Source: Streptomyces sp. T12
GTDB taxonomy: Bacteria; Actinomycetota; Actinomycetes; Streptomycetales; Streptomycetaceae
Direction: 5' to 3'
Assembly (NCBI RefSeq): GCF_028736035.1
Contig: NZ_CP117866.1
Location: 2,914,001-2,978,000, forward strand
DNA length: 64,000 nucleotides
Shown here: positions 16,879 through 58,150 of the stretch, one piece after another
Position numbering within the stretch: position 1 is the stretch's first letter
Layout: each line of letters starts with the position of its first letter
Made by a program: the position numbers and the translations under genes
Notes under the pieces: generated by a model
What the model was told of the DNA's origin: nothing
The model's database searches: none
The model's input: only the letters and a program-made list of their open reading frames with translations

Positions 16879-17290
16879 GGCAGACGAGTCGGGCTATACG
16901 CCGGGTTCTGTTCCGGGGGGTCCTCGCGAACCCCCCGGCGACGGCCATCCATCTACGACCGGCGTTGCCGCCAGCCTCCTGCGGTCTACCCGCGGACTCG
17001 GGCGGGCAGCCCTCGAACGTCCGCGCAGAGTGCCTGTTACAGCGCTCCTTTTGACCTTGCTCCGGGTGGGGTTTACCTAGCTGCCCAGGTCACCCTGGGC
17101 ACTGGTGGTCTCTTACACCACCGTTTCACCCTTACCCAGCGCCTGAGCGCTGGGCGGTTTGCTTTCTGTGGCACTGTCCCGCGGGTCACCCCGGGTGGCC
17201 GTTAGCCACCACCCTGCCCTGTGGAGCCCGGACGTTCCTCGGGAAGCCCCCTGAGGGACTCCACGCGGCCGCCCGCCCGGCTCGTCTGCC
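16879..17290 (-). ncRNA. rnpB: RNase P RNA (class A)
   Basis: Catalytic RNA of RNase P, which matures tRNA 5' ends. On the minus strand the 5' region carries GAGGAACGTCCGGGCTCCAC, then the GGGCAGGGTGGTGGCTAACG and GACAGTGCCACAGAAA segments of the conserved core. The 3' end has ACCCGGCGTATAGCCCGACT. The termini pair: GGCAGACGAG at the 5' end (17290 downward) matches CTCGTCTGCC at the 3' end (to 16879), giving helix P1 and fixing the approximate ends. The length of about 412 nt is typical for Streptomyces. Confidence 0.95.
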
Positions 17291-41827: not shown

Positions 41828-41876
41828 AGGGGCGCGGGGAACTGCGCGATCAACCACAGACAACCCGCACCCGCCA
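41828..41876. repeat. Dispersed Streptomyces-type repeat, copy 1
   Basis: A 31-bp core (41828-41858; begins AGGGGCGCGGGGAACTGCGC) followed by an 18-bp partly matching tail (ending ACCCGCACCCGCCA) is identical in its core to a second copy at 54282-54312. I recall this sequence as a common dispersed element in Streptomyces intergenic DNA. This copy is intergenic, between convergent genes. Confidence 0.8.
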
Positions 41877-48643: not shown

Positions 48644-48691
48644 GTTATAGTGGGCCGGTGGCCGGAACGTGGCGCGGCGATTGGGGATCCC

Positions 48692-49720
48692 ATGGCGCAG
48701 GTGTACGACCATGGCGGCGGCGTCCGGTCCATCGAGGTCCCCATCCCTGACAACCCGCTCGGCCACACCCTCGTGTACGTCGTCGACACCGACCGCGGCC
48801 CGGTGCTCATCGACACCGGCTGGGACGACCCGGCCTCCTGGGACACCCTCGCCGAGGGCCTCGCGGCATGCGGCACCGCGCCCGGTGAGATCCACGGCGT
48901 GGTCATCACCCACCACCACCCCGACCACCACGGCCTGTCCGGCCAGGTGCGCGAGGCCTCCGGCGCCTGGATCGCGATGCACGCGGCGGACGCGGCGATC
49001 GTGCGGCGCACCCGCGCGACCCGCCCCGAGCGCTGGTTCTCCTACATGGCGGACAAGCTCACCGCGGCCGGCGCCCCCGACGCCCACGTGTCTCCGCTGC
49101 GCACCGCCCGCCGCCGGAGCACCCTGCCCGGCTTCTCCCCCGCCGCGCCCGACCGCGAGATCGTCCCCGGCGACCTCCTCGACCTCCCCGGCCGCCGCCT
49201 GCGCGCGATCTGGACCCCGGGGCACACCCCCGGCCATGTCTGCCTGCACCTGGAGGAGGAACACCCGGCTCAACTCCCGGGCCACGGCCGCCTGTTCTCC
49301 GGCGACCACCTGCTCCCCGGAATCACCCCGCACATCGGCCTGTACGAGGACCCCGACGACACCACCGTCACCGACCCCCTCGGCGACTACCTGGCCTCCC
49401 TCGAACGCGTCGGCCACCTCGCCCCCGCCGAGATCCTCCCGGCCCACCAGCACGCCTTCACCGACGCCGGCGCCCGCGTACGGGAGTTGCTGCTCCACCA
49501 CGAGTCCCGCCTCACCGACCTCCTGACCCTCCTCGCCGAGCCCCTCACCCCCTGGCAGCTCGCCGAGCGCATGGAGTGGAACCGGCCCTGGGACCAGATC
49601 CCGTACGGATCACGGAACATCGCGATCGCGGAGGCCGAGGCCCATCTGCGGCGGCTGGTGAAGCTGGGGAGGGCGGAGGCGGTGGCCGGGAGTGAACCGG
49701 TGACGTACGTGGCCGTATAG
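48692..49720 (+). CDS. MBL-fold metallohydrolase
   Basis: A 342-residue metallo-beta-lactamase-fold hydrolase with a C-terminal helical extension. Metal ligands are VVITHHHPDHHGLSG (HxHxDH), TPGHTPGHVCLH, FSGDHLL and a late PAHQHAF. The C-terminal about 80 residues resemble the winged region of long MBL proteins (LAEPLTPWQLAERMEW). Substrate unknown; related long MBL hydrolases act as thioesterases or lactonases. ATG 48692 is chosen over 48650 because the extra 14 residues overlap the operator-proximal leader. Followed 2 nt later by the SnoaL-like gene. Confidence 0.87.
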   Translation: MAQVYDHGGGVRSIEVPIPDNPLGHTLVYVVDTDRGPVLIDTGWDDPASWDTLAEGLAACGTAPGEIHGVVITHHHPDHHGLSGQVREASGAWIAMHAADAAIVRRTRATRPERWFSYMADKLTAAGAPDAHVSPLRTARRRSTLPGFSPAAPDREIVPGDLLDLPGRRLRAIWTPGHTPGHVCLHLEEEHPAQLPGHGRLFSGDHLLPGITPHIGLYEDPDDTTVTDPLGDYLASLERVGHLAPAEILPAHQHAFTDAGARVRELLLHHESRLTDLLTLLAEPLTPWQLAERMEWNRPWDQIPYGSRNIAIAEAEAHLRRLVKLGRAEAVAGSEPVTYVAV

Positions 49721-49722
49721 AG

Positions 49723-50190
49723 ATGACCATGAACGCCATGGATCCTGTGGACCGGCTGCTCGCCGAACGCGCCTGCGAGCGCATCGTCGTCGACTTCGTC
49801 CACCGCCTCGACCTCGGCGAACCGTCCTCCGTCGGCGAGCTGTTCACCGAGGACGGCACCTGGGAGTGGCCGGCGGGTGAGCGGCTGGTCGAGGGGCGGG
49901 ACGCGTTGCGCGCGTACTTCGGCTCCCGCCCCGCCGACCGTCTCTCGCGGCGCCTGATGTCCAACATCCTCGTCACGGTGACGTCCCCCGACACCGCGAC
50001 GTCGACCTCGTACTTCACGACGTACCGCGTCGACGGCCACGAGGGCGGCCTGGTCCCGCCGGGGCCCCCGGTCCAGGTGGGGCACTACGAGGACACGTTC
50101 CGCAGGCCGCCGGACGGCACATGGCTCCTGTCCGCCCGGATCCTCCATCTCGCCTTCGCCGGACCGACCCCGCGCCCGCCCAGGCCATGA
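49723..50190 (+). CDS. SnoaL-like (NTF2-fold) protein
   Basis: A 155-residue NTF2-like protein: ERIVVDFVHRLDLGEPSSVG, LFTEDGTWEWPAGERLVEG, LRAYFGSRPAD and VGHYEDTFRRPPDGTWLLS follow the SnoaL_4 pattern of cone-shaped small-molecule binding proteins, isomerases or hydratases. It is coupled to the MBL gene (stop and start 2 nt apart) and so falls under the same KstR-like operator. KsdI-type steroid isomerases share this fold, but sequence alone does not show that activity. Confidence 0.8.
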   Translation: MTMNAMDPVDRLLAERACERIVVDFVHRLDLGEPSSVGELFTEDGTWEWPAGERLVEGRDALRAYFGSRPADRLSRRLMSNILVTVTSPDTATSTSYFTTYRVDGHEGGLVPPGPPVQVGHYEDTFRRPPDGTWLLSARILHLAFAGPTPRPPRP

Positions 50191-50227
50191 AGGCCTCGCA
50201 CCACCTCCCCTCAGCCGTTTCCCTACG

Positions 50228-50372
50228 GGCCGGTAGAGTGACGGCGTCGTCATCACGCCCGTACAGGGGGAAGCCGGTGCAAATCCGGCGCTGACCCCGC
50301 AACCGTGAACCGGTCGTCAAAGGCCGGTGAGCCGGATCGCCCCGTACGGTTCGTGACCGGCTCACGTGCCCC
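50228..50372 (+). ncRNA. Cobalamin (B12) riboswitch
   Basis: The B12-box region is explicit: GGGAAGCCGGTGCAAATCCG, GCGCTGACCCCGCAACCGTG, then TCAAAGGCCGGTGAGCCGGA. The 3' boundary is approximate. Downstream, before the first gene, TTCCC/GGGAA at about 50451-50464 can form a small hairpin over a ribosome-site-like AGGG, a plausible expression platform. It precedes the ECF transporter operon, so adenosylcobalamin or a relative should repress it. Confidence 0.95.
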
Positions 50373-50476
50373 GGCAGCCGGCCGGAGCACGGCACCGTCG
50401 AGGTATACGGAGCCGAGCCGCCCGGGGGTCCCCCCTGTGCTGCCCGGTTCCCCTTAGGGAAGGGCACCCGCCGATC

Positions 50477-51712
50477 ATGTACGTCCGCCGCAGCGCCGCG
50501 GTCCTGGCCGCCACCGTCGTGATCGGTACGGCGACGCCCGTCACCGCCGCCGACTCCGCCCCGTCCGCGTCACCGTCCGTGGCGATTCCCACGGGCTTGT
50601 ACGGCACGACCGACCCGACGTACGACGGTGTATGGCGCCAGTCCCTCGCGCTGCTCGCCCTGGACACGGTGGGTGTGAAGCCGGCGGCGAAGGCCGTGGA
50701 GTGGCTGACCGGGCAGCAGTGTGCCGACGGGGGATTCGCCCCGTTCCGCGCCGACGTCTCGAAGGCGTGCGACGCGAAGACGCCGGTCGACACCAACAAC
50801 ACGGCCGCCGCCGTCCAGGCCCTGGCCGCGCTCGGCGGGCACGACGCCGTGACCGGCAAGGCGGTCGCCTGGCTGAAGAGCGTGCAGAACAAGGACGGAG
50901 GCTGGGGGTACGCGGTGGGCGGCCCGAGTGACGCGAACTCGACCTCCGTCGTGATCGGTGCGCTCACGGCCGTCGGCGAGAAGCCGGGCGACGTACGCAA
51001 GGGGGGCAGGTCGCCGTACGACGCCCTGCTGTCCCTCGCCATCCCGTGCGGCGAGGACGGCGGCGGCGCCTTCGCCTTCCAGCCGGACAAGAAGGGCAAG
51101 CTGGCCGCCAACGCGGACGCGACGGCCGCCGCCGTGGTCGGTGCGCTCGGCAAGACGCTCGCCGGTGCCGCCCCGAAGCCCACCGCCGAGGCCCTCGCCT
51201 GCAAGAACGCCGCCGACCCCGAGCAGGCCGCGCGCAACGGCGCCGCTTACCTCGTCAAGGCCCTGGCCAAGGACGATCACCTCACGTCGGCCATGCCCGG
51301 CGCCGAGAACCAGCCCGACTACGGCAACACCGCCGACGCAGTCCTCGCCCTGTCCACTGCCGGCCACGGCGACAAGGCGGCCGACGCCATGCGCTGGCTG
51401 GGCTCCCACTACCGGCAGTGGGCCGAACAGGCAGGCCCGGCCGCATACGCCCAGCTGATCCTCGCCGCGAACACCGGCTTCGACGTACGAGACTTCGACG
51501 GCACCGGCGACGACCTGGTCGAGCGCCTCACCGCCACCGGCCCCGCCCCCGAGTTCGTCCCAGCCGTCAAGTCGCCCACGGCGAGCGACGTCCAGAAGCA
51601 GGCCGACAAGGACGATGACAACGGCGTCAGCGTCTGGTGGATCGTCGGCGTCGGCCTGGTCGCGGGCATCGGCGTCGGCTTCCTGATCAGCGGCCGCAAT
51701 AAGGGCAAGTGA
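50477..51712 (+). CDS. Surface-anchored (alpha/alpha) barrel protein, first gene of the B12 operon
   Basis: A 411-residue exported protein. The signal peptide (AAVLAATVVIGTATPVTAAD) is followed by a prenyltransferase/squalene-oxidase-type repeat barrel (WLTGQQCADGGFAPFRADV; WLKSVQNKDGGWGYAVGGP; YGNTADAVLALSTAGHGD), with Cys in QQCADG, KACDAK, IPCGED and LACKNA. A C-terminal transmembrane anchor (WWIVGVGLVAGIGVGFLISG) and basic tail finish it. Being outside the cell, it is no prenyltransferase. The same fold forms the N-domain of animal intrinsic factor and transcobalamin. Under a B12 riboswitch and upstream of an ECF transporter, a cobalamin-capturing role is likely. Confidence 0.82.
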   Translation: MYVRRSAAVLAATVVIGTATPVTAADSAPSASPSVAIPTGLYGTTDPTYDGVWRQSLALLALDTVGVKPAAKAVEWLTGQQCADGGFAPFRADVSKACDAKTPVDTNNTAAAVQALAALGGHDAVTGKAVAWLKSVQNKDGGWGYAVGGPSDANSTSVVIGALTAVGEKPGDVRKGGRSPYDALLSLAIPCGEDGGGAFAFQPDKKGKLAANADATAAAVVGALGKTLAGAAPKPTAEALACKNAADPEQAARNGAAYLVKALAKDDHLTSAMPGAENQPDYGNTADAVLALSTAGHGDKAADAMRWLGSHYRQWAEQAGPAAYAQLILAANTGFDVRDFDGTGDDLVERLTATGPAPEFVPAVKSPTASDVQKQADKDDDNGVSVWWIVGVGLVAGIGVGFLISGRNKGK

Positions 51713-52365
51713 CCGTGATCCGCCGCGCTTTCACCCTCCTTCTGACCGCGCTGGTCCTCCTGACCGGCGCGGCCCAGGCCGCCCACGCGACGGGCTACCG
51801 CTACTGGTCCTTCTGGGACCGCGACGGCGACACCTGGGCCTACGCCACCCAGGGCCCCTCCCTCGCCCGCCCCTCCGACGGCGACGTCCAGGGCTTCCGC
51901 TTCGCGGTGAGCGAGGACTCGAAGGACGCCGCGAAGCCGAGGGGCGCGGCCGAGTTCGCGGTGATCTGCGCGAGGACGCCCGCGCAGGACGGCAAGAAGC
52001 GGGTGGCCCTGGTCATCGACTTCGGTAAGGCAGCGGACGCCCCGTCGGGCGAGACGCCACCGGCCCGCCGTACGGCATGCGCGCGGGTGGCCCCGGACGC
52101 GACCACGGCGGAGGCCCTGGCCGCGGTGGCCAAGCCCCTGCGGTACGACACGAACGCCCTGTTGTGCGCGATCTCGGGGTATCCGGAGAAGGGGTGCGGG
52201 GAGCAGGTCGCGGAGGGCGAGAAGCCGACTGCCCCCGAGAAGACGACCGCCGAGAATCGAGAGACGTCGGACGAGGGCCCCTCGCTGGGCCTGGTGGCGG
52301 GAATCGCCGTAGTGGCCGTACTCGGCGCGGCAGCGGTCTGGCAGGCACGGCGGCGGCGGACGTGA
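51709..52365 (+). CDS. Surface-anchored small protein (SCO2322-family), second gene of the B12 operon
   Basis: A 218-residue exported protein. The signal peptide (LLLTALVLLTGAAQAAHATG) precedes a compact domain beginning YRYWSFWDRDGDTWAYATQG with conserved aromatic residues, and Cys in VICART, RTACARV, LLCAI and KGCGE. A Glu/Thr-rich spacer and a C-terminal transmembrane helix (LGLVAGIAVVAVLGAAAVW) follow. The GTG start overlaps the stop of the barrel gene (GTGA). I recall the family name SCO2322. It may be the partner cap for the barrel protein, as in the second domain of transcobalamin; this is inference. Confidence 0.8.
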   Translation: MTVIRRAFTLLLTALVLLTGAAQAAHATGYRYWSFWDRDGDTWAYATQGPSLARPSDGDVQGFRFAVSEDSKDAAKPRGAAEFAVICARTPAQDGKKRVALVIDFGKAADAPSGETPPARRTACARVAPDATTAEALAAVAKPLRYDTNALLCAISGYPEKGCGEQVAEGEKPTAPEKTTAENRETSDEGPSLGLVAGIAVVAVLGAAAVWQARRRRT

Positions 52366-53450
52366 GGGCACGGCCACAGCTGCACCCCGGCGCCTGGTGG
52401 CTCTGGTCCCTCTCCCTAGGCACCGCGGCCACCCGCACCACCAACCCCCTCCTCCTCACCCTCCTCATAGCGACCTCCGCCTACGTAGTGGCGACCTGCC
52501 GCCCCGACGCCCCCTGGGCCCGCTCCTACACGGCCTTCGCCAAGCTCGCCCTGGCCGTTCTCCTCATCCGCCTCGTCTTCGCCGTGGCCCTCGGCTCCCC
52601 CATCCCCGGCACGCATGTGATCGTCACCCTCCCCGAACTGCCCCTGCCGCACTGGGCGCAGGGCATCCGCCTGGGCGGCAAGGTCACCGTCGAGACCCTC
52701 CTCTTCGCCCTCTACGACGGCCTGCGGCTGGCCGCCCTCCTCATCTGCGTGGGCGCGGCGAACTCCCTGGCCAACCCCGCACGCCTCCTCAAGTCCCTCC
52801 CCGGCGCCCTCTACGAGATGGGCGTGGCGGTGGTCGTGGCCCTCACCTACGCCCCCCACCTGATCGCCGACGTCCAGCGCCTGCGTGCCGCCCGCCGTCT
52901 GCGCGGCCGCCCCGACACGGGTATCCGCGGCCTCCTGCACGTCGGACTCCCGGTCCTGGAGGGCGCGTTGGAGCGCTCGGTCGCCCTCGCCGCCGCGATG
53001 GACGCCCGCGGCTACGGCCGCAGCGCCGACGTCCCGCCCCGCGTCCGCCGTACGACCACCGCGCTCACCCTCGGCGGACTGCTCGGCGTCTGCGCGGGAA
53101 CGTACGGACTGCTGACCGCCGAGGGCGGCACGTACGGCCTCCCGGTCCTCCTCGCCGGACTCGTCGCCGCGCTCGCGGGGCTGCGGCTCGGCGGTCGCCG
53201 TACCCTGCGCACCCGTTACCGCCCGGACCGCTGGGACGCCCGCGCCTGGCTGGTCGCCGGTTCCGGCGCGGCCGTCGCCGCCCTGCTGGCCCTCGCCGCC
53301 GCCCGCGACCCGGCGGCCCTGCACCCCGGCGTGGTCCCCCTCGTCGCACCCGCCCTCCCCCTGTGGCCCGCGGCGGCCGTCCTCCTCGGCCTGCTCCCCG
53401 CGTTCATCAGCCCCGCACCCCGCCGTCCCGCCCTCAAGGAGCCGTCGTGA
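52362..53450 (+). CDS. ecfT: ECF transporter transmembrane subunit EcfT
   Basis: A 362-residue membrane scaffold of an energy-coupling-factor transporter. It has about seven hydrophobic helices, and the coupling-helix signature appears as AAAMDARGYGRS (the A-R-G motif) near residue 215, with an earlier RLRAARRLRGR. It transmits ATP hydrolysis to toppling of the S component. The GTG start overlaps the previous stop. The C-terminal about 120 residues add extra helices beyond the minimal EcfT. Confidence 0.88.
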   Translation: MRARPQLHPGAWWLWSLSLGTAATRTTNPLLLTLLIATSAYVVATCRPDAPWARSYTAFAKLALAVLLIRLVFAVALGSPIPGTHVIVTLPELPLPHWAQGIRLGGKVTVETLLFALYDGLRLAALLICVGAANSLANPARLLKSLPGALYEMGVAVVVALTYAPHLIADVQRLRAARRLRGRPDTGIRGLLHVGLPVLEGALERSVALAAAMDARGYGRSADVPPRVRRTTTALTLGGLLGVCAGTYGLLTAEGGTYGLPVLLAGLVAALAGLRLGGRRTLRTRYRPDRWDARAWLVAGSGAAVAALLALAAARDPAALHPGVVPLVAPALPLWPAAAVLLGLLPAFISPAPRRPALKEPS

Positions 53451-55126
53451 TCCGCTTCGAGAACGTCTCCGTGACGTACGACGGTGCCACCGAACCCACC
53501 GTCCAAGGCGTGGACTTCGAGGTCCCGGAGGGTGAACTGGTGCTGCTCGTCGGCCCGTCGGGCGTCGGCAAGTCCACCGTGCTCGGCGCGGTGAGCGGGC
53601 TCGTCCCGCACTTCACCGGCGGCACCCTGCGCGGCCGCGTCACGGTGGCCGGCCGCGACACCCGCACGCACAAGCCGCGCGAACTCGCCGACGTGGTGGG
53701 CACGGTGGGGCAGGACCCCCTCTCCCATTTCGTGACCGACACCGTCGAGGACGAACTGGCCTACGGCATGGAGTCGCTGGGCCTCGCCCCGGACGTCATG
53801 CGCCGCCGCGTCGAGGAGACCCTCGACCTGCTGGGCCTGACCGACCTGCGCGCCCGCTCCATCGCCGCCCTCTCCGGCGGCCAGCAACAACGCGTCGCGA
53901 TCGGCTCGGTACTCACCCCGCACCCCAGGGCGCTGATCCTCGACGAGCCCACCTCGGCCCTGGACCCCGCGGCCGCGGAAGAGGTCCTCGCGGTCCTCCA
54001 ACGCCTGGTCCACGACCTCGGCACGACGGTCCTGATGGCCGAACACCGCCTGGAGCGCGTCATCCAGTACGCCGACCAGGTCGTACTGCTGTCCTCTCCG
54101 GGCGCGGCCCCCGTCCTCGGCACCCCGGCGGAGATGATGGCCGTATCCCCGGTGTACCCCCCGGTCGTCGACCTCGGCCGCCTCGCAGGCTGGTCCCCGC
54201 TCCCTCTGACGGTGAGGGACGCACGCCGCATGGCGCCAGCCCTACGGCAACGGCTTGAGGAACGGAACTACATCGCCGCTAAGGGGCGCGGGGAACTGCG
54301 CGATCAACCACAACGAACCCGCACCCGCCAACAATCCGAGCCCCCCGAGCTATTGGGCACCACCGACCGCCGATGGTTCCGACGAAGGCGCACCCCCACC
54401 ACCACAACAACCCCCCACGCGGCCGAAGTACAAGCCCTCGCCGTAACCCGCGACCGCACCCAGGCCCTACGCCACGTAGACCTCACCGTCTCCCCCGGCG
54501 AAACCATCGCCCTCATGGGCCGCAACGGCGCCGGAAAATCCACCCTGCTCAACACGCTGGTCGGCCTGGTCAAGCCCTCCGCAGGTGCTGTCACCCTCGG
54601 CGGAGTCGTCGGCCTGGTCCCGCAGGAACCCCGCGACCTCCTCTACGCCGACACGGTCGCCGCCGAGTGCACGACCGCCGACGCCGACGTGGGCGCGGCG
54701 CCCGGCACCTGCCGCGCCCTGGTTTCCGAGCTCCTCCCGGACATCTGCGACGACACCCACCCCCGCGACCTCTCCGAGGGCCAGCGCCTGACACTCGCGC
54801 TGGCGATCGTCCTGACCGCCCGCCCGGCGCTGCTCCTCCTCGACGAACCGACCCGTGGCCTCGACTACGCGGCGAAGTCCCGCCTGCTCACCCTTCTGCG
54901 CGGGCTCGCCGCCGAGGGGCACGCCATCGTGCTGGCCACGCATGACGTGGAGCTGGCCGCCGAACTCGCCCACCGGGTCGTGCTCCTCGCCGACGGCGAG
55001 GTGATAGCGGACGGCCCGGCAGCGGACGTGGTGGTCGCCTCGCCGTCCTTCGCCCCGCAGGTGGCCAAGATCCTGGCCCCGCAGAAGTGGCTCACGGTCG
55101 CCGAGGTGCGGGAGGCCCTCGCATGA
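53447..55126 (+). CDS. ECF transporter duplicated ATPase (EcfA-EcfA' fusion)
   Basis: A 559-residue protein with two ABC ATPase domains in tandem. Domain 1 has Walker A GPSGVGKST, signature LSGGQQQRV, Walker B LILDEPTSALDP and switch AEHR. Domain 2 (from about residue 330) has MGRNGAGKST, a degenerate signature LSEGQRLTL and LLLDEPTRGLD, with switch ATHD. The linker at about 270-325 is Arg/Gln/Pro/Thr-rich and includes an in-frame copy of a dispersed repeat (54282-54312). Start GTG 53447 overlaps the ecfT stop. It powers the B12 importer. Confidence 0.9.
   Translation: MIRFENVSVTYDGATEPTVQGVDFEVPEGELVLLVGPSGVGKSTVLGAVSGLVPHFTGGTLRGRVTVAGRDTRTHKPRELADVVGTVGQDPLSHFVTDTVEDELAYGMESLGLAPDVMRRRVEETLDLLGLTDLRARSIAALSGGQQQRVAIGSVLTPHPRALILDEPTSALDPAAAEEVLAVLQRLVHDLGTTVLMAEHRLERVIQYADQVVLLSSPGAAPVLGTPAEMMAVSPVYPPVVDLGRLAGWSPLPLTVRDARRMAPALRQRLEERNYIAAKGRGELRDQPQRTRTRQQSEPPELLGTTDRRWFRRRRTPTTTTTPHAAEVQALAVTRDRTQALRHVDLTVSPGETIALMGRNGAGKSTLLNTLVGLVKPSAGAVTLGGVVGLVPQEPRDLLYADTVAAECTTADADVGAAPGTCRALVSELLPDICDDTHPRDLSEGQRLTLALAIVLTARPALLLLDEPTRGLDYAAKSRLLTLLRGLAAEGHAIVLATHDVELAAELAHRVVLLADGEVIADGPAADVVVASPSFAPQVAKILAPQKWLTVAEVREALA
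54282..54330. repeat. Dispersed Streptomyces-type repeat, copy 2, inside the ECF ATPase gene
   Basis: The 31-bp core (54282-54312) is identical to that at 41828-41858, and the next 18 bp match at most positions. Here it is read in frame as part of the linker between the two ATPase domains (GRGELRDQPQRTRTRQ region), without a stop or frameshift. Confidence 0.8.
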
Positions 55127-55953
55127 CCGGCCGCTCCACTCGCCAGGCCCGAGCCGTCCGCCTCGGACCCCGCTCCATCGCCGCCCTCGTCCTGGTCAGC
55201 GCGGTCGGCGTGGCCGCGCTCGGCTGGCCCTTCCTCTCCCCGCCCGCCTCGCAGGTGAGCGCGCACGCGCAGGACGCCCCGTGGCTGTTCACCGGCCTGC
55301 TTCTCCTGCTGGTCGCCGTCGTCGCCGCGACGATCTCCGAGTCCGGGCTCGGCCCGAAGGCGGTGGCGATGCTCGGCGTGCTGGCGGCGACCGGCGCCGC
55401 CCTGCGCCCCCTCGGCGCCGGAACGGCCGGTATCGAGCCGATGTTCTTCCTGATGGTGCTCAGCGGCCGGGTCCTCGGCCCCGGCTTCGGCTTCGTTCTC
55501 GGCGCGGTGACGATGTTCGCGTCCGCCCTGCTCACGGGCGGGGTGGGGCCGTGGATGCCGTTCCAGATGCTGTCGATGGGCTGGTTCACGATGGGCGCCG
55601 GGCTGCTGCCGGGCCCGGACCGCCTGCGCGGCCGCGGTGAGCTGCTCCTGCTGGCCGGCTACGGCTTCCTGGCCGCCTTCGCCTACGGCACGGTGATGAA
55701 CATGCAGGGCTGGCCCTACTTCGACCCGGACGTCACACCGCTCGCCCCCGACCCGCAGGCCGGGCCCCTGGCCAACCTCGCCCGCTTCGCCGCGTACTGC
55801 CTGGCCACCTCGCTCGGCTGGGACCTCGGCCGGGCGGTGGTCACCGTCGTTCTCACCCTCACGCTCGGTCCGGCGATCCTCAAGGCGCTGCGCCGGGCCA
55901 CCCGCCGGGCGGCCTTCGAGAGCCCGGTCACATTCGACGCTCCCGCAGGGTGA
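55123..55953 (+). CDS. ECF transporter substrate-binding (S) component
   Basis: A 276-residue integral membrane S component with about six to seven helices (SIAALVLVSAVGVAALGWPF; LFTGLLLLLVAVVAATISES; FFLMVLSGRVLGPGFGFVLG). Sequences such as VTMFASALLTGGVGPWMPFQ and MLSMGWFTMGAGLLPG are typical of ECF S subunits of the CbrT/cobalamin-like group. The ATG overlaps the ATPase stop. The riboswitch, rather than the sequence alone, assigns the substrate as cobalamin or a precursor. Last gene of the operon. Confidence 0.87.
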   Translation: MTGRSTRQARAVRLGPRSIAALVLVSAVGVAALGWPFLSPPASQVSAHAQDAPWLFTGLLLLLVAVVAATISESGLGPKAVAMLGVLAATGAALRPLGAGTAGIEPMFFLMVLSGRVLGPGFGFVLGAVTMFASALLTGGVGPWMPFQMLSMGWFTMGAGLLPGPDRLRGRGELLLLAGYGFLAAFAYGTVMNMQGWPYFDPDVTPLAPDPQAGPLANLARFAAYCLATSLGWDLGRAVVTVVLTLTLGPAILKALRRATRRAAFESPVTFDAPAG

Positions 55954-56289
55954 GGGACCGCGCGCGGACCGTCAGCGACCCGGTGAACCACCCCACATGA
56001 CCCACATCACCTACGATCCATCTTAGTCGGACAAATCGGATGCCATGCGCGCGTCAATTTAGCCGCTGACCTGCGCGTTGAGAGCCACGTCACACAAACA
56101 ACCTTCACCCCACATACGACTACAACTAGCAAACAGGCTCATTGCGGACACCTTCCCGGCCTGCTTCTCTGGATGACGTCGCACGGCGCCGACGTGCCCT
56201 CAGGGCCGCGGCGCCGACGCACGCCCCCCGCCTCGCATCGCGTGGTTCCGGCATGCCTGCGGCGCACTGTCCCCGAAGAAAGGCTCCCC
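55954..56289 (+). other. Intergenic leader upstream of the lysozyme-like gene
   Basis: A 336-bp gap with lower GC than its surroundings around 56000-56140 (for example ATCTTAGTCGGACAAATCGG). Secreted cell-wall hydrolase genes in Streptomyces often have long riboswitch-bearing leaders, so I looked for a c-di-AMP (ydaO) motif but did not find its conserved parts. I see no gene in it. Confidence 0.5.
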
Positions 56290-56706
56290 GTGTCCGTGGT
56301 TTCCACCTTCCGTCGCATCTCCGCCCCGAAGAAGGCCCTCGCCGGTGCCGCCCTGGCCGCCGCCACCGCCGGCACCCTGTTCGCCGCCGCGCCCGCGCAG
56401 GCCGCGACGACCGAGGCCGGCTCGGCGCAGCAGATCGCGAAGAAGATGATCTCGGACTCGGCCCAGTACCAGTGCTTCTCCAAGATCGTCGACCACGAGA
56501 GCGACTGGAACATCAACGCCACGAACGCCTCCAGCGGCGCCTACGGCCTCGTCCAGGCCCTGCCCGGCAACAAGATGGCCTCCGCCGGCTCCGACTGGAA
56601 GACCAACCCGGCCACCCAGATCGAGTGGGGCCTGGACTACATGAAGGACCGCTACGGCAGCCCGTGCGGCGCCTGGAACTTCTGGCAGTCGAACGGCTGG
56701 TACTGA
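56290..56706 (+). CDS. Secreted transglycosylase-like (lysozyme-fold) protein
   Basis: A 138-residue secreted protein. The signal peptide (ALAGAALAAATAGTLFAAAP, cleavage near AQAA) precedes a compact lytic-transglycosylase-like domain. CFSKIVDHESDWNINATNAS carries the catalytic Glu, GAYGLVQALPGNKM and IEWGLDYMKDRYGSPCGAWN follow, and the end is a Trp-rich FWQSNGWY. Two Cys may form a disulphide. It should cut peptidoglycan glycan strands. GTG 56290 follows AAAGG. A strong terminator lies 21 nt after the stop. Confidence 0.87.
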   Translation: MSVVSTFRRISAPKKALAGAALAAATAGTLFAAAPAQAATTEAGSAQQIAKKMISDSAQYQCFSKIVDHESDWNINATNASSGAYGLVQALPGNKMASAGSDWKTNPATQIEWGLDYMKDRYGSPCGAWNFWQSNGWY

Positions 56707-56727
56707 GCCGACACCGCCAGACAGAAC

Positions 56728-56767
56728 CGAAGGCGGCGGCCCCCGATCCCCGGGGCCGCCGCCTTCG
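56728..56767 (+). terminator. Strong hairpin terminator
   Basis: CGAAGGCGGCGGCCCC at 56728-56743 pairs perfectly over 16 bp with GGGGCCGCCGCCTTCG at 56752-56767, with an 8-nt loop. It separates the transglycosylase gene from the convergent P450 gene. Confidence 0.88.
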
Positions 56768-56868
56768 CCGTACCCCTTCAGAGCGGCGCTCAACGGGCGC
56801 GTGCCGTCTCGGGGGAGGCAGGAACGGGGCGTAGGGAAAAGGGGTGCTCCTGCCTCCCTCGGGACGGG

Positions 56869-58104
56869 TCAGCCGGTGCTGACCCGGAGTTCCTTCACAC
56901 CGTTGATCCACGCGGAGCGCAGTCGGCGGGGGTCGCCGACCAGCCGCAGGTCGGGCAGGGCGTCGGCCACGGCGTTGAAGATGAGGTCGATCTCCAGGAC
57001 CGCCAGGGACTTGCCCAGGCAGTAGTGAGGGCCGCCGCCACCGAAGCCCAGATGGGGGTTGGGGTCGCGGGTGATGTCGAAGGCGTCCGGGGTTTCGAAG
57101 ACCTCGGGGTCGTGGTTGGCGGAGGCGTAGAAGATGCCGACCCGGTCGCCCTTCTTGATCTGCTTGCCGCCGAGCTCCGTGTCCTGCGTCGCCGTGCGCT
57201 GGAAGGAGACCACCGGGGTCGCCCAGCGCACGATCTCCTCGGCCGCCGTCCCGGGGCGCTCCCTCTTGTACAGCTCCCACTGCTCGGGGTGGGTGAGGAA
57301 GGCGTGCATGCCGTGGGTGATGGCGTTGCGGGTGGTCTCGTTGCCGGCCACGGCCAGCATCAGCACGAAGAACCCGAACTCGTCCGAGCGGAGGTTGCCT
57401 TCGTCCTCGGCCGCGACCAGCGTCGTGACGATGTCCTTCGCCGGGCACTCCTTGCGGTCGGCGGCCATGTTCATCGCGTACGCGATGAGCTCGGTGGCCG
57501 ACTCCTGCCCGACCTCCTCGGTGATGGCGTACTCGGGATCGTCGTACGAGATCATCTTGTTGGACCAGTCGAATATCTTGGCCCGGTCGTCCTGCGGAAT
57601 GCCGATGAGCTCGGCGATGGCCTGGAGGGGCAGTTCGCAGGCGACCTCGGTGACGAAGTCGAAGGGGCCGGGGTGTTCCCGGGCGTTCGCGGCGATCGCC
57701 CGCGCCCGCGTCCGCAGGCGTTCCTCCAGGGCGCGGATGGCGCGCGGGGTGAAGACGCGCTGGACGATCTGGCGGACCCGGGTGTGCTCGGGCGGGTCCA
57801 TGTTCAGCAGGATCAGCCGCTGGGCATCGATGGCATCGCGCTCGATGTGCTCGTTGAAGCGGATGATCGCGGTGTTGAGGGTGGACGAGAACAACTCCGG
57901 GTGCGTCGAGACGTACTTGACGTCCGCGTGCCGGGTCACCGCCCAGTAGCCCTCGTCCTGGAACCCGGCCACGTTGCCCGCCTGCGGGATCCAGCGGACC
58001 GGTTCGGCGCGGCGCAGCTCGGCGAACTCCGGGAGGGGGACGCGGTGGTGCAGCACATCGGGGTCGGTGAAGTCGAACCCGTCGGGAAGCGCTGGACAGG
58101 GCAT
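56869..58104 (-). CDS. Cytochrome P450, CYP125-like (steroid C26/27 hydroxylase type)
   Basis: A 411-residue bacterial P450. It opens with PCPALPDGFDFTDPDVLHHR, then has the oxygen-activating I-helix AVAGNETTRN, the ExxR motif in EEIVRW, and the heme loop FGGGGPHYCLGKSLA with the Cys ligand. The opening, the NKMISYDDPEY segment and the PHYCLG spacing agree with CYP125, which oxidises the terminal methyl of the cholesterol side chain, as I remember it. ATG 58104 follows AGGAG by 6 nt. Divergent from the FadA5-like thiolase; two KstR-like boxes lie between. The likely electron donor is the ferredoxin at 46.6 kb. Confidence 0.87.
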   Translation of the reverse strand: MPCPALPDGFDFTDPDVLHHRVPLPEFAELRRAEPVRWIPQAGNVAGFQDEGYWAVTRHADVKYVSTHPELFSSTLNTAIIRFNEHIERDAIDAQRLILLNMDPPEHTRVRQIVQRVFTPRAIRALEERLRTRARAIAANAREHPGPFDFVTEVACELPLQAIAELIGIPQDDRAKIFDWSNKMISYDDPEYAITEEVGQESATELIAYAMNMAADRKECPAKDIVTTLVAAEDEGNLRSDEFGFFVLMLAVAGNETTRNAITHGMHAFLTHPEQWELYKRERPGTAAEEIVRWATPVVSFQRTATQDTELGGKQIKKGDRVGIFYASANHDPEVFETPDAFDITRDPNPHLGFGGGGPHYCLGKSLAVLEIDLIFNAVADALPDLRLVGDPRRLRSAWINGVKELRVSTG

Positions 58105-58150
58105 GGACAGCTCCTGACGGTCCATCAGCAAAGGGGGTCGTCGTGACGGT

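Follow-up and report, generated by a model that had tools for sequence, protein, structure and literature searches.

A candidate ECF corrinoid importer of Streptomyces with two tethered surface proteins whose domains are circularly permuted

Streptomyces sp. T12 carries an operon that consists of a cobalamin riboswitch followed by five genes on the + strand, with a 4-base overlap at each junction between genes. The operon lies in a stretch of 64,000 nucleotides, here called the window (NCBI RefSeq assembly GCF_028736035.1, contig NZ_CP117866.1, positions 2,914,001 to 2,978,000 of the forward strand), and encodes two exported, membrane-anchored proteins together with EcfT, a fused EcfA-EcfA' ATPase (EcfAA') and a putative S component of an energy-coupling factor (ECF) transporter (Table 1). 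We read it as a probable B12-repressed ECF corrinoid importer with two tethered extracytoplasmic capture subunits, and put the probability of this reading somewhat above one half, at about 0.57. The first surface protein is an alpha/alpha toroid and the second is a small protein whose unpermuted relatives are remotely similar to the beta domain of transcobalamin. Sequence comparison indicates that both halves are rotated in chain order, a feature that a preliminary description of this DNA had overlooked.

The riboswitch scores 36.4 bits against the Rfam model RF00174, above the gathering score of 31.5, and with the overlapping genes behind it this confirms the riboswitch-led operon as it was first described; the start given at that time, position 50228, falls within the aptamer. 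The features that define an ECF transporter, EcfT and paired ATPases, are both present, with a CbiQ match over the cut-off for EcfT and two ATP-binding cassette (ABC) domains in the fused chain. The earlier claim of a complete transporter holds for these components and is less firm for the S component, which falls just short of the PF12822 cut-off and is a putative EcfS; its position and conservation fit. A relative of this putative S component occurs somewhere, on either strand, in 35 of the 40 loci introduced below.

Table 1. Features of the operon, with positions in the window.
Feature	Position	Strand	Evidence
Cobalamin riboswitch aptamer	50217-50361	+	RF00174
SCO2321-family exported toroid protein, 411 amino acids	50477-51712	+	NF053823 592.9 bits
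First toroid piece, the C-terminal half (profile 169-355) of unrotated toroids	50594-51166	+	110.3 bits
Second toroid piece, the N-terminal half (profile 60-163) of unrotated toroids	51203-51535	+	36.7 bits
C-terminal membrane tail of toroid (approximate)	51626-51709	+	hydrophobic stretch then RNKGK, from sequence
SCO2322-family exported small protein, 218 amino acids, GTG start	51709-52365	+	NF040672 236.5 bits
First beta piece, the C-terminal part (profile 80-124) of the unpermuted domain	51793-51924	+	37.6 bits
Second beta piece, the N-terminal part (profile 6-77) of the unpermuted domain	51976-52206	+	21.3 bits
GPS-CTERM membrane anchor/sorting segment	52276-52359	+	NF040681 32.8 bits, cut-off 28
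EcfT transmembrane component	52362-53450	+	PF02361 CbiQ 34.1 bits, cut-off 25
EcfA-EcfA' ATPases, one fused chain	53447-55126	+	PF00005 174.4 bits, two stretches
Putative EcfS substrate-binding membrane component	55123-55953	+	PF12822 29.2 bits, cut-off 30.7

At the sequence level each surface protein starts in a signal-like segment, and its C-terminus is a hydrophobic tail that carries basic residues; in the small protein this tail is recognized as a GPS-CTERM domain. Their description as exported and membrane-anchored is thereby borne out. The small protein is a clear member of NF040672 (SCO2322_fam), for which the curated cut-off is 85 bits. When the NCBIfam profile of this family was run on 296 genomes of the phylum, 44 were matched, ten of them over the cut-off; genomes G134 and G284 showed the profile halves in reverse order. 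We studied 40 loci from 39 of the 44 matching genomes, leaving out the window's genome and four others of its genus; the loci were selected solely by their match to the SCO2322 beta-domain profile. A motif pattern found 38 copies of the domain in these loci, and the 33 copies in unpermuted order were aligned into a profile. Against this profile the window domain scores 55.6 bits (E = 3.3e-19) with its two pieces swapped. A rotation scan reaches its peak, 68.7 bits in one continuous match, when the window domain is cut in the linker, and 30 shuffled versions, each rotated, give at most 2.9 bits. The divergent relatives in loci L056 and L054 show the same swapped-piece behavior. Between families, an hhalign comparison of the permuted with the unpermuted sequences covers 44 columns before rotation (probability 97.7, E = 2.4e-12) and 111 columns after it (probability 99.3, E = 2.4e-20). 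Across the strain's whole genome, with 150 of 274 candidates scored, the unpermuted profile matched only the small-protein frame, in swapped order (E = 3.6e-10 and 0.0023). Judged by these alignments, the small protein is a circularly permuted version of a domain that is found unpermuted in the same type of ECF operon elsewhere in Actinomycetota.

The toroid protein is likewise a clear member of its family, NF053823 (SCO2321_fam), with a curated cut-off of 300 bits, and its matches to SQHop_cyclase_C (PF13243, 36.8 bits) and Prenyltrans (PF00432, 28.5 bits), both over the cut-offs, agree with the alpha/alpha fold first proposed for it. Against a profile built from 16 toroids, rotation by ~200 residues raises the best single match of this protein from 111 bits (native order) to 144.5 bits, and three toroids from outside the profile score best at or beside their native order. 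On this comparison the window toroid is rotated in chain order relative to its relatives in other Actinomycetota. The possibility that the two-piece match is a chance product of internal repeats was considered and rejected, since 12 toroids outside the model each matched as one collinear piece. Two swapped pieces were found in the toroids of the window, of three Streptomyces loci (L056, L057 and L059), and of L078 and L079. In the last two, the rotated toroid stands next to an unpermuted beta domain, and the two rotations are therefore not strictly coupled. Rotation of the toroid may have arisen more than once. Genomes L050 and L067, from the same family as L078 and L079, have unrotated toroids.

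The association of the two surface proteins with each other, with ECF genes and with the riboswitch recurs across the phylum. In 33 of the 40 loci EcfT, EcfAA' and EcfS are encoded on the same strand as the beta gene, a toroid is found in 33 as well, and 27 have a riboswitch, recognized by an Rfam match or a core pattern, no more than 1.5 kb upstream; the core pattern gave no match in 13.5 Mb of base-shuffled sequence. Relative to the unpermuted profile, 35 loci have a collinear beta domain and five a swapped one, both pieces being detected in L054, L056 and L059 and only the first piece exceeding the threshold in L057 and L058. Of 476 relatives found, the 80 named ones that were kept are all Streptomyces. 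The 79 of these that were aligned, after one was dropped, were picked by swapped-order motifs, and the riboswitch core pattern lies anywhere in the locus in 62 of the 80. Among 150 genomes of the genus, 142 contain the SCO2321 family and 140 the SCO2322 family over the cut-off, which argues that the operon is more than a chance arrangement, and 158 of 296 genomes of the class have a match to the unpermuted beta profile. Some genomes hold more than one arrangement. Genome G171, of the same genus, has the permuted operon L056 and a separate locus, L055, with an unpermuted beta domain, a toroid, ECF genes and a DUF4430 match nearby, and L051 (5173-16899) holds four cobalamin riboswitches, two toroid genes and two beta genes in ~12 kb.

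Three loci (L042, L045 and L062) contain a single open frame in which a toroid is followed directly by one or two beta domains; in L062 the toroid spans residues 40-379 and the beta domain residues 390-509. These frames continue into cell-wall-binding repeats and adjoin a second beta gene and ECF genes; in L045 and L062 an Rfam riboswitch precedes them. PF01122, the animal family, gives a weak match in one fused relative (E = 0.0059, 16.1 bits, cut-off 25). In intrinsic factor, an alpha/alpha toroid domain is followed by a beta domain in one chain, and the three fusions share this order. Such natural fusions fit the idea that toroid and beta protein are two halves of one clamp. In a tree of EcfAA' (36 rows, midpoint root), one supported group unites the fusions with L051, L055 and L060, and the window forms one supported clade with four Streptomyces rows inside a larger group that includes unpermuted loci. 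From this nesting, which depends on the midpoint root only, the permutation is read as derived. Locus L054 falls outside the window clade at a position the tree does not settle. The permuted or unpermuted label needs two changes on the best tree and one change in 2% of 200 bootstrap trees; the starred branches force only one. The permutation may have arisen once or more than once.

The link to animal B12 carriers is made through DUF4430 (PF14478), a domain that the cited passage of PMC4350170 places at the C-terminus of transcobalamins and that is present in 51 of 296 genomes of the phylum. DUF4430 has no match in the small protein of the window at E <= 1 or in the strain's own genome at E <= 0.001. 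When 30 DUF4430 domains were aligned and compared with the unpermuted beta family by hhalign, the match was collinear over 77 columns with a score of 30.4 (E = 1.5e-4, probability 51.7%); none of 200 column shuffles scored above 18.7, and the reversed controls scored 8.9 and 9.4. This comparison suggests a remote similarity of the unpermuted beta family to DUF4430 and the transcobalamin beta domain. Genomic context agrees and strengthens the remote match. The DUF4430 match in L074 (25.4 bits, cut-off 23.8) belongs to a short exported protein that is encoded immediately after a riboswitch and ahead of a toroid, an unpermuted beta gene and ECF genes. Of 30 DUF4430 loci, 15 have an EcfT-like neighbor, ten others an ABC-ATPase neighbor by a test that is not ECF-specific, and two a toroid. 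Searched against solved structures, the DUF4430 profile gives weak matches to 3u7z, a putative metal-binding protein (RUMGNA_00854; E = 0.043), and to transcobalamin-1 (E = 0.31), followed by an unrelated protein (E = 0.53).

In the mechanism that we propose, cobalamin scarcity would permit expression of the operon through the riboswitch. The toroid and the small beta protein would be the alpha and beta halves of a clamp like that of intrinsic factor and transcobalamin, each exported and anchored by its C-terminal membrane tail. The two halves would close over a corrinoid held between them outside the membrane and hand it to the S component, and EcfT and EcfAA' would drive it across the membrane. 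Circular permutation of both halves would relocate the chain ends and thus the points at which the membrane tails attach, and it is speculation that the permutation serves the geometry of the tethers. The full version of this model, an ECF importer with a two-piece intrinsic-factor-like clamp made of permuted chains, with relocated anchors and with the clamp opening toward the S component, is held tentatively, at a little under even odds.

A number of observations weigh against the importer reading or against the likeness to animal carriers. Among proteins with solved structures, the best relatives of the toroid are squalene-hopene cyclases and not transcobalamin, and the alpha half therefore belongs to the toroid superfamily and not specifically to the intrinsic-factor family; PF01122 (Cobalamin_bind) is not matched by the window toroid at E <= 1. 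Pfam gives no match for the small protein at E <= 1 and recognizes DUF4430 in just one of its 33 unpermuted relatives (E = 0.04), and the permuted family alone compares weakly with DUF4430 (hhalign score ~23, probability ~9%), with no gain from rotation. Because it was the permuted profile, chiefly its first half, that led to these unpermuted relatives, they are not a fully independent set. The predicted structure of the small protein has five strands, in keeping with the suggestion that it is beta-rich, but the model is mediocre (predicted local distance difference test, pLDDT, 66.9; predicted template modeling score, pTM, 0.67) and convincingly resembles no solved structure. Fold searches gave no informative match, and a search of the unpermuted beta profile against the sequences of solved structures brought up no relative (best E = 0.41). 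For the S component, a PDB sequence search gave no solved transporter: the window protein had an unrelated match only (E = 0.27) and its family profile none at E <= 1. Seven of the 40 loci (L040, L041, L044, L054, L063, L068 and L076, the last a short contig) have no detected toroid on the strand of the beta gene, and 13 have no riboswitch within the 1.5-kb rule, some of them because of the rule itself, as in L047 and L053, where an Rfam match overlaps the read-through frame. Twenty of the 30 DUF4430 loci, each only ~3 kb long, were searched for riboswitches and have none at the gathering threshold. The preliminary proposal of a split clamp finds support in part, from the permuted domain, with its unpermuted form remotely similar to DUF4430, and from the natural fusions.

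The loci with a beta gene and no toroid detected on its strand also fit an alternative in which toroid and beta protein are both B12-related and act independently, each binding corrinoid or docking to the S component on its own, with no joint clamp. A solitary riboswitch-led beta gene that stands divergent to the ECF operon in L060 (4700-5461) fits it too. We consider independent action unlikely, because the two are encoded on one strand in most loci, are fused in three open frames and are each near universal in the genus. It is quite improbable that the likeness to DUF4430 and transcobalamin reflects a generic beta-rich fold and that the pair binds a ligand other than a corrinoid. The modest hhalign probability of the unpermuted family, its fall for the permuted family alone and the weakness of any Pfam signal would be expected on that account, but the score of the unpermuted family lies above all 200 column shuffles, a DUF4430 protein occurs in the same riboswitch-led operon type, both families adjoin transporter genes, and the riboswitch itself links the operon to B12.

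A related question is which corrinoid or precursor is carried. A cobalamin riboswitch also precedes a CbiB/CobD gene in this genome and EcfT matches the CbiQ family, as might be expected if the operon imported a B12 precursor (cobinamide or a lower-ligand base) or cobalt and not complete cobalamin. We regard this as distinctly unlikely; CbiM and CbiN are not among the listed Pfam matches of the operon, and a metal ion needs no two-sided protein clamp. It is highly improbable that the toroid protein works as a squalene-hopene cyclase-type enzyme, as its best Pfam and PDB sequence matches might suggest. The DxDDTA motif provides the catalytic acid of squalene-hopene cyclase, and the window toroid has VDTNNTA where the cyclase has DVDDTA; DxDDTA/V is missing from all 35 toroid relatives, and the protein looks exported and tethered.

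A literature search, in which few subscription papers were covered, found no publication on these genes or this system. The NCBIfam families SCO2321 and SCO2322, of which the window proteins are members, are named after locus tags in the style of S. coelicolor, and the names assign no function. Animal intrinsic factor, transcobalamin and haptocorrin combine an alpha/alpha toroid with a beta domain, as the window pair appears to do; in the window, however, the two are separate tethered chains, both circularly permuted and joined to an ECF transporter, and neither PF01122 nor DUF4430 is matched. ECF-CbrT, the vitamin B12 transporter of Lactobacillus delbrueckii, likewise has EcfT, two ATPase domains and an S component. 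The Streptomyces operon adds two exported subunits, and its putative S component has no detectable sequence match to a solved one, in a PDB set for which the inclusion of CbrT is unconfirmed. The cited part of PMC5997447 describes the S component of ECF transporters as the substrate-binding protein. BtuFCD, with its extracytoplasmic capture protein, resembles the system in the presumed function of the Streptomyces proteins, but it belongs to another transporter class, and neither surface protein contains a BtuF-type or periplasmic binding domain (Pfam, E <= 1). BtuG of Bacteroides is similarly a surface-tethered B12 capture protein beside a transporter; the cited part of PMC6143338 describes it as a seven-bladed beta-propeller, and thus a fold other than that of the Streptomyces pair.

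The strain's genome (11.46 Mb) contains five RF00174 matches, three of them over the threshold. Besides the operon, such matches precede the CbiB/CobD gene, an NrdA gene and a BtuC-family permease, the last with 28.5 bits, below the Rfam threshold. Because CbiB/CobD is a biosynthesis gene, the strain may make or remodel corrinoids. The best models for the permease are a putative F420-0 permease and then BtuC, both below their cut-offs. The preliminary description had the tethered proteins acting instead of a BtuF-type binding protein, which could apply only to this transporter and may be too strong for the organism, since the genome may keep a BtuC-family transporter. The strain may thus have two import routes for B12, this operon being one of them, and may make B12 as well.

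A perfect short hairpin, TTCCC-CTTA-GGGAA at 50448-50464, overlaps the presumed ribosome-binding site of the toroid gene and may be the off-switch of the riboswitch; a computed fold of the whole leader does not single it out. The linker between EcfA and EcfA' contains an in-frame 21-base sequence (54283-54303) with 39 exact copies in the genome (24 forward, 15 reverse), a second of them in the window at 41829-41849; its reversed control has no copy in the same genome. It is apparently a dispersed repeat within a coding ATPase linker. The flanks look unrelated to B12: upstream, from 48650 to 50190, are a metallo-beta-lactamase-fold protein and a SnoaL-like protein, and downstream (56281-58131) are an SLT transglycosylase-domain protein and, on the other strand, a cytochrome P450. 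Elsewhere in the window is a bacterial class A RNase P RNA (16881-17284, - strand, 291 bits).

If the importer reading is true, two near-universal Streptomyces families that have no function in their names would be B12-capture proteins, and ECF importers would gain a binding-protein-dependent class, against the general view that they have no separate binding protein. The architecture of human intrinsic factor would have a bacterial counterpart coupled to a transporter, and the animal-type carrier architecture would be an old bacterial device. With two permutations in a single operon, and relatives that are unpermuted, fused or split, the system would offer a natural experiment on the tether geometry of a ligand clamp.

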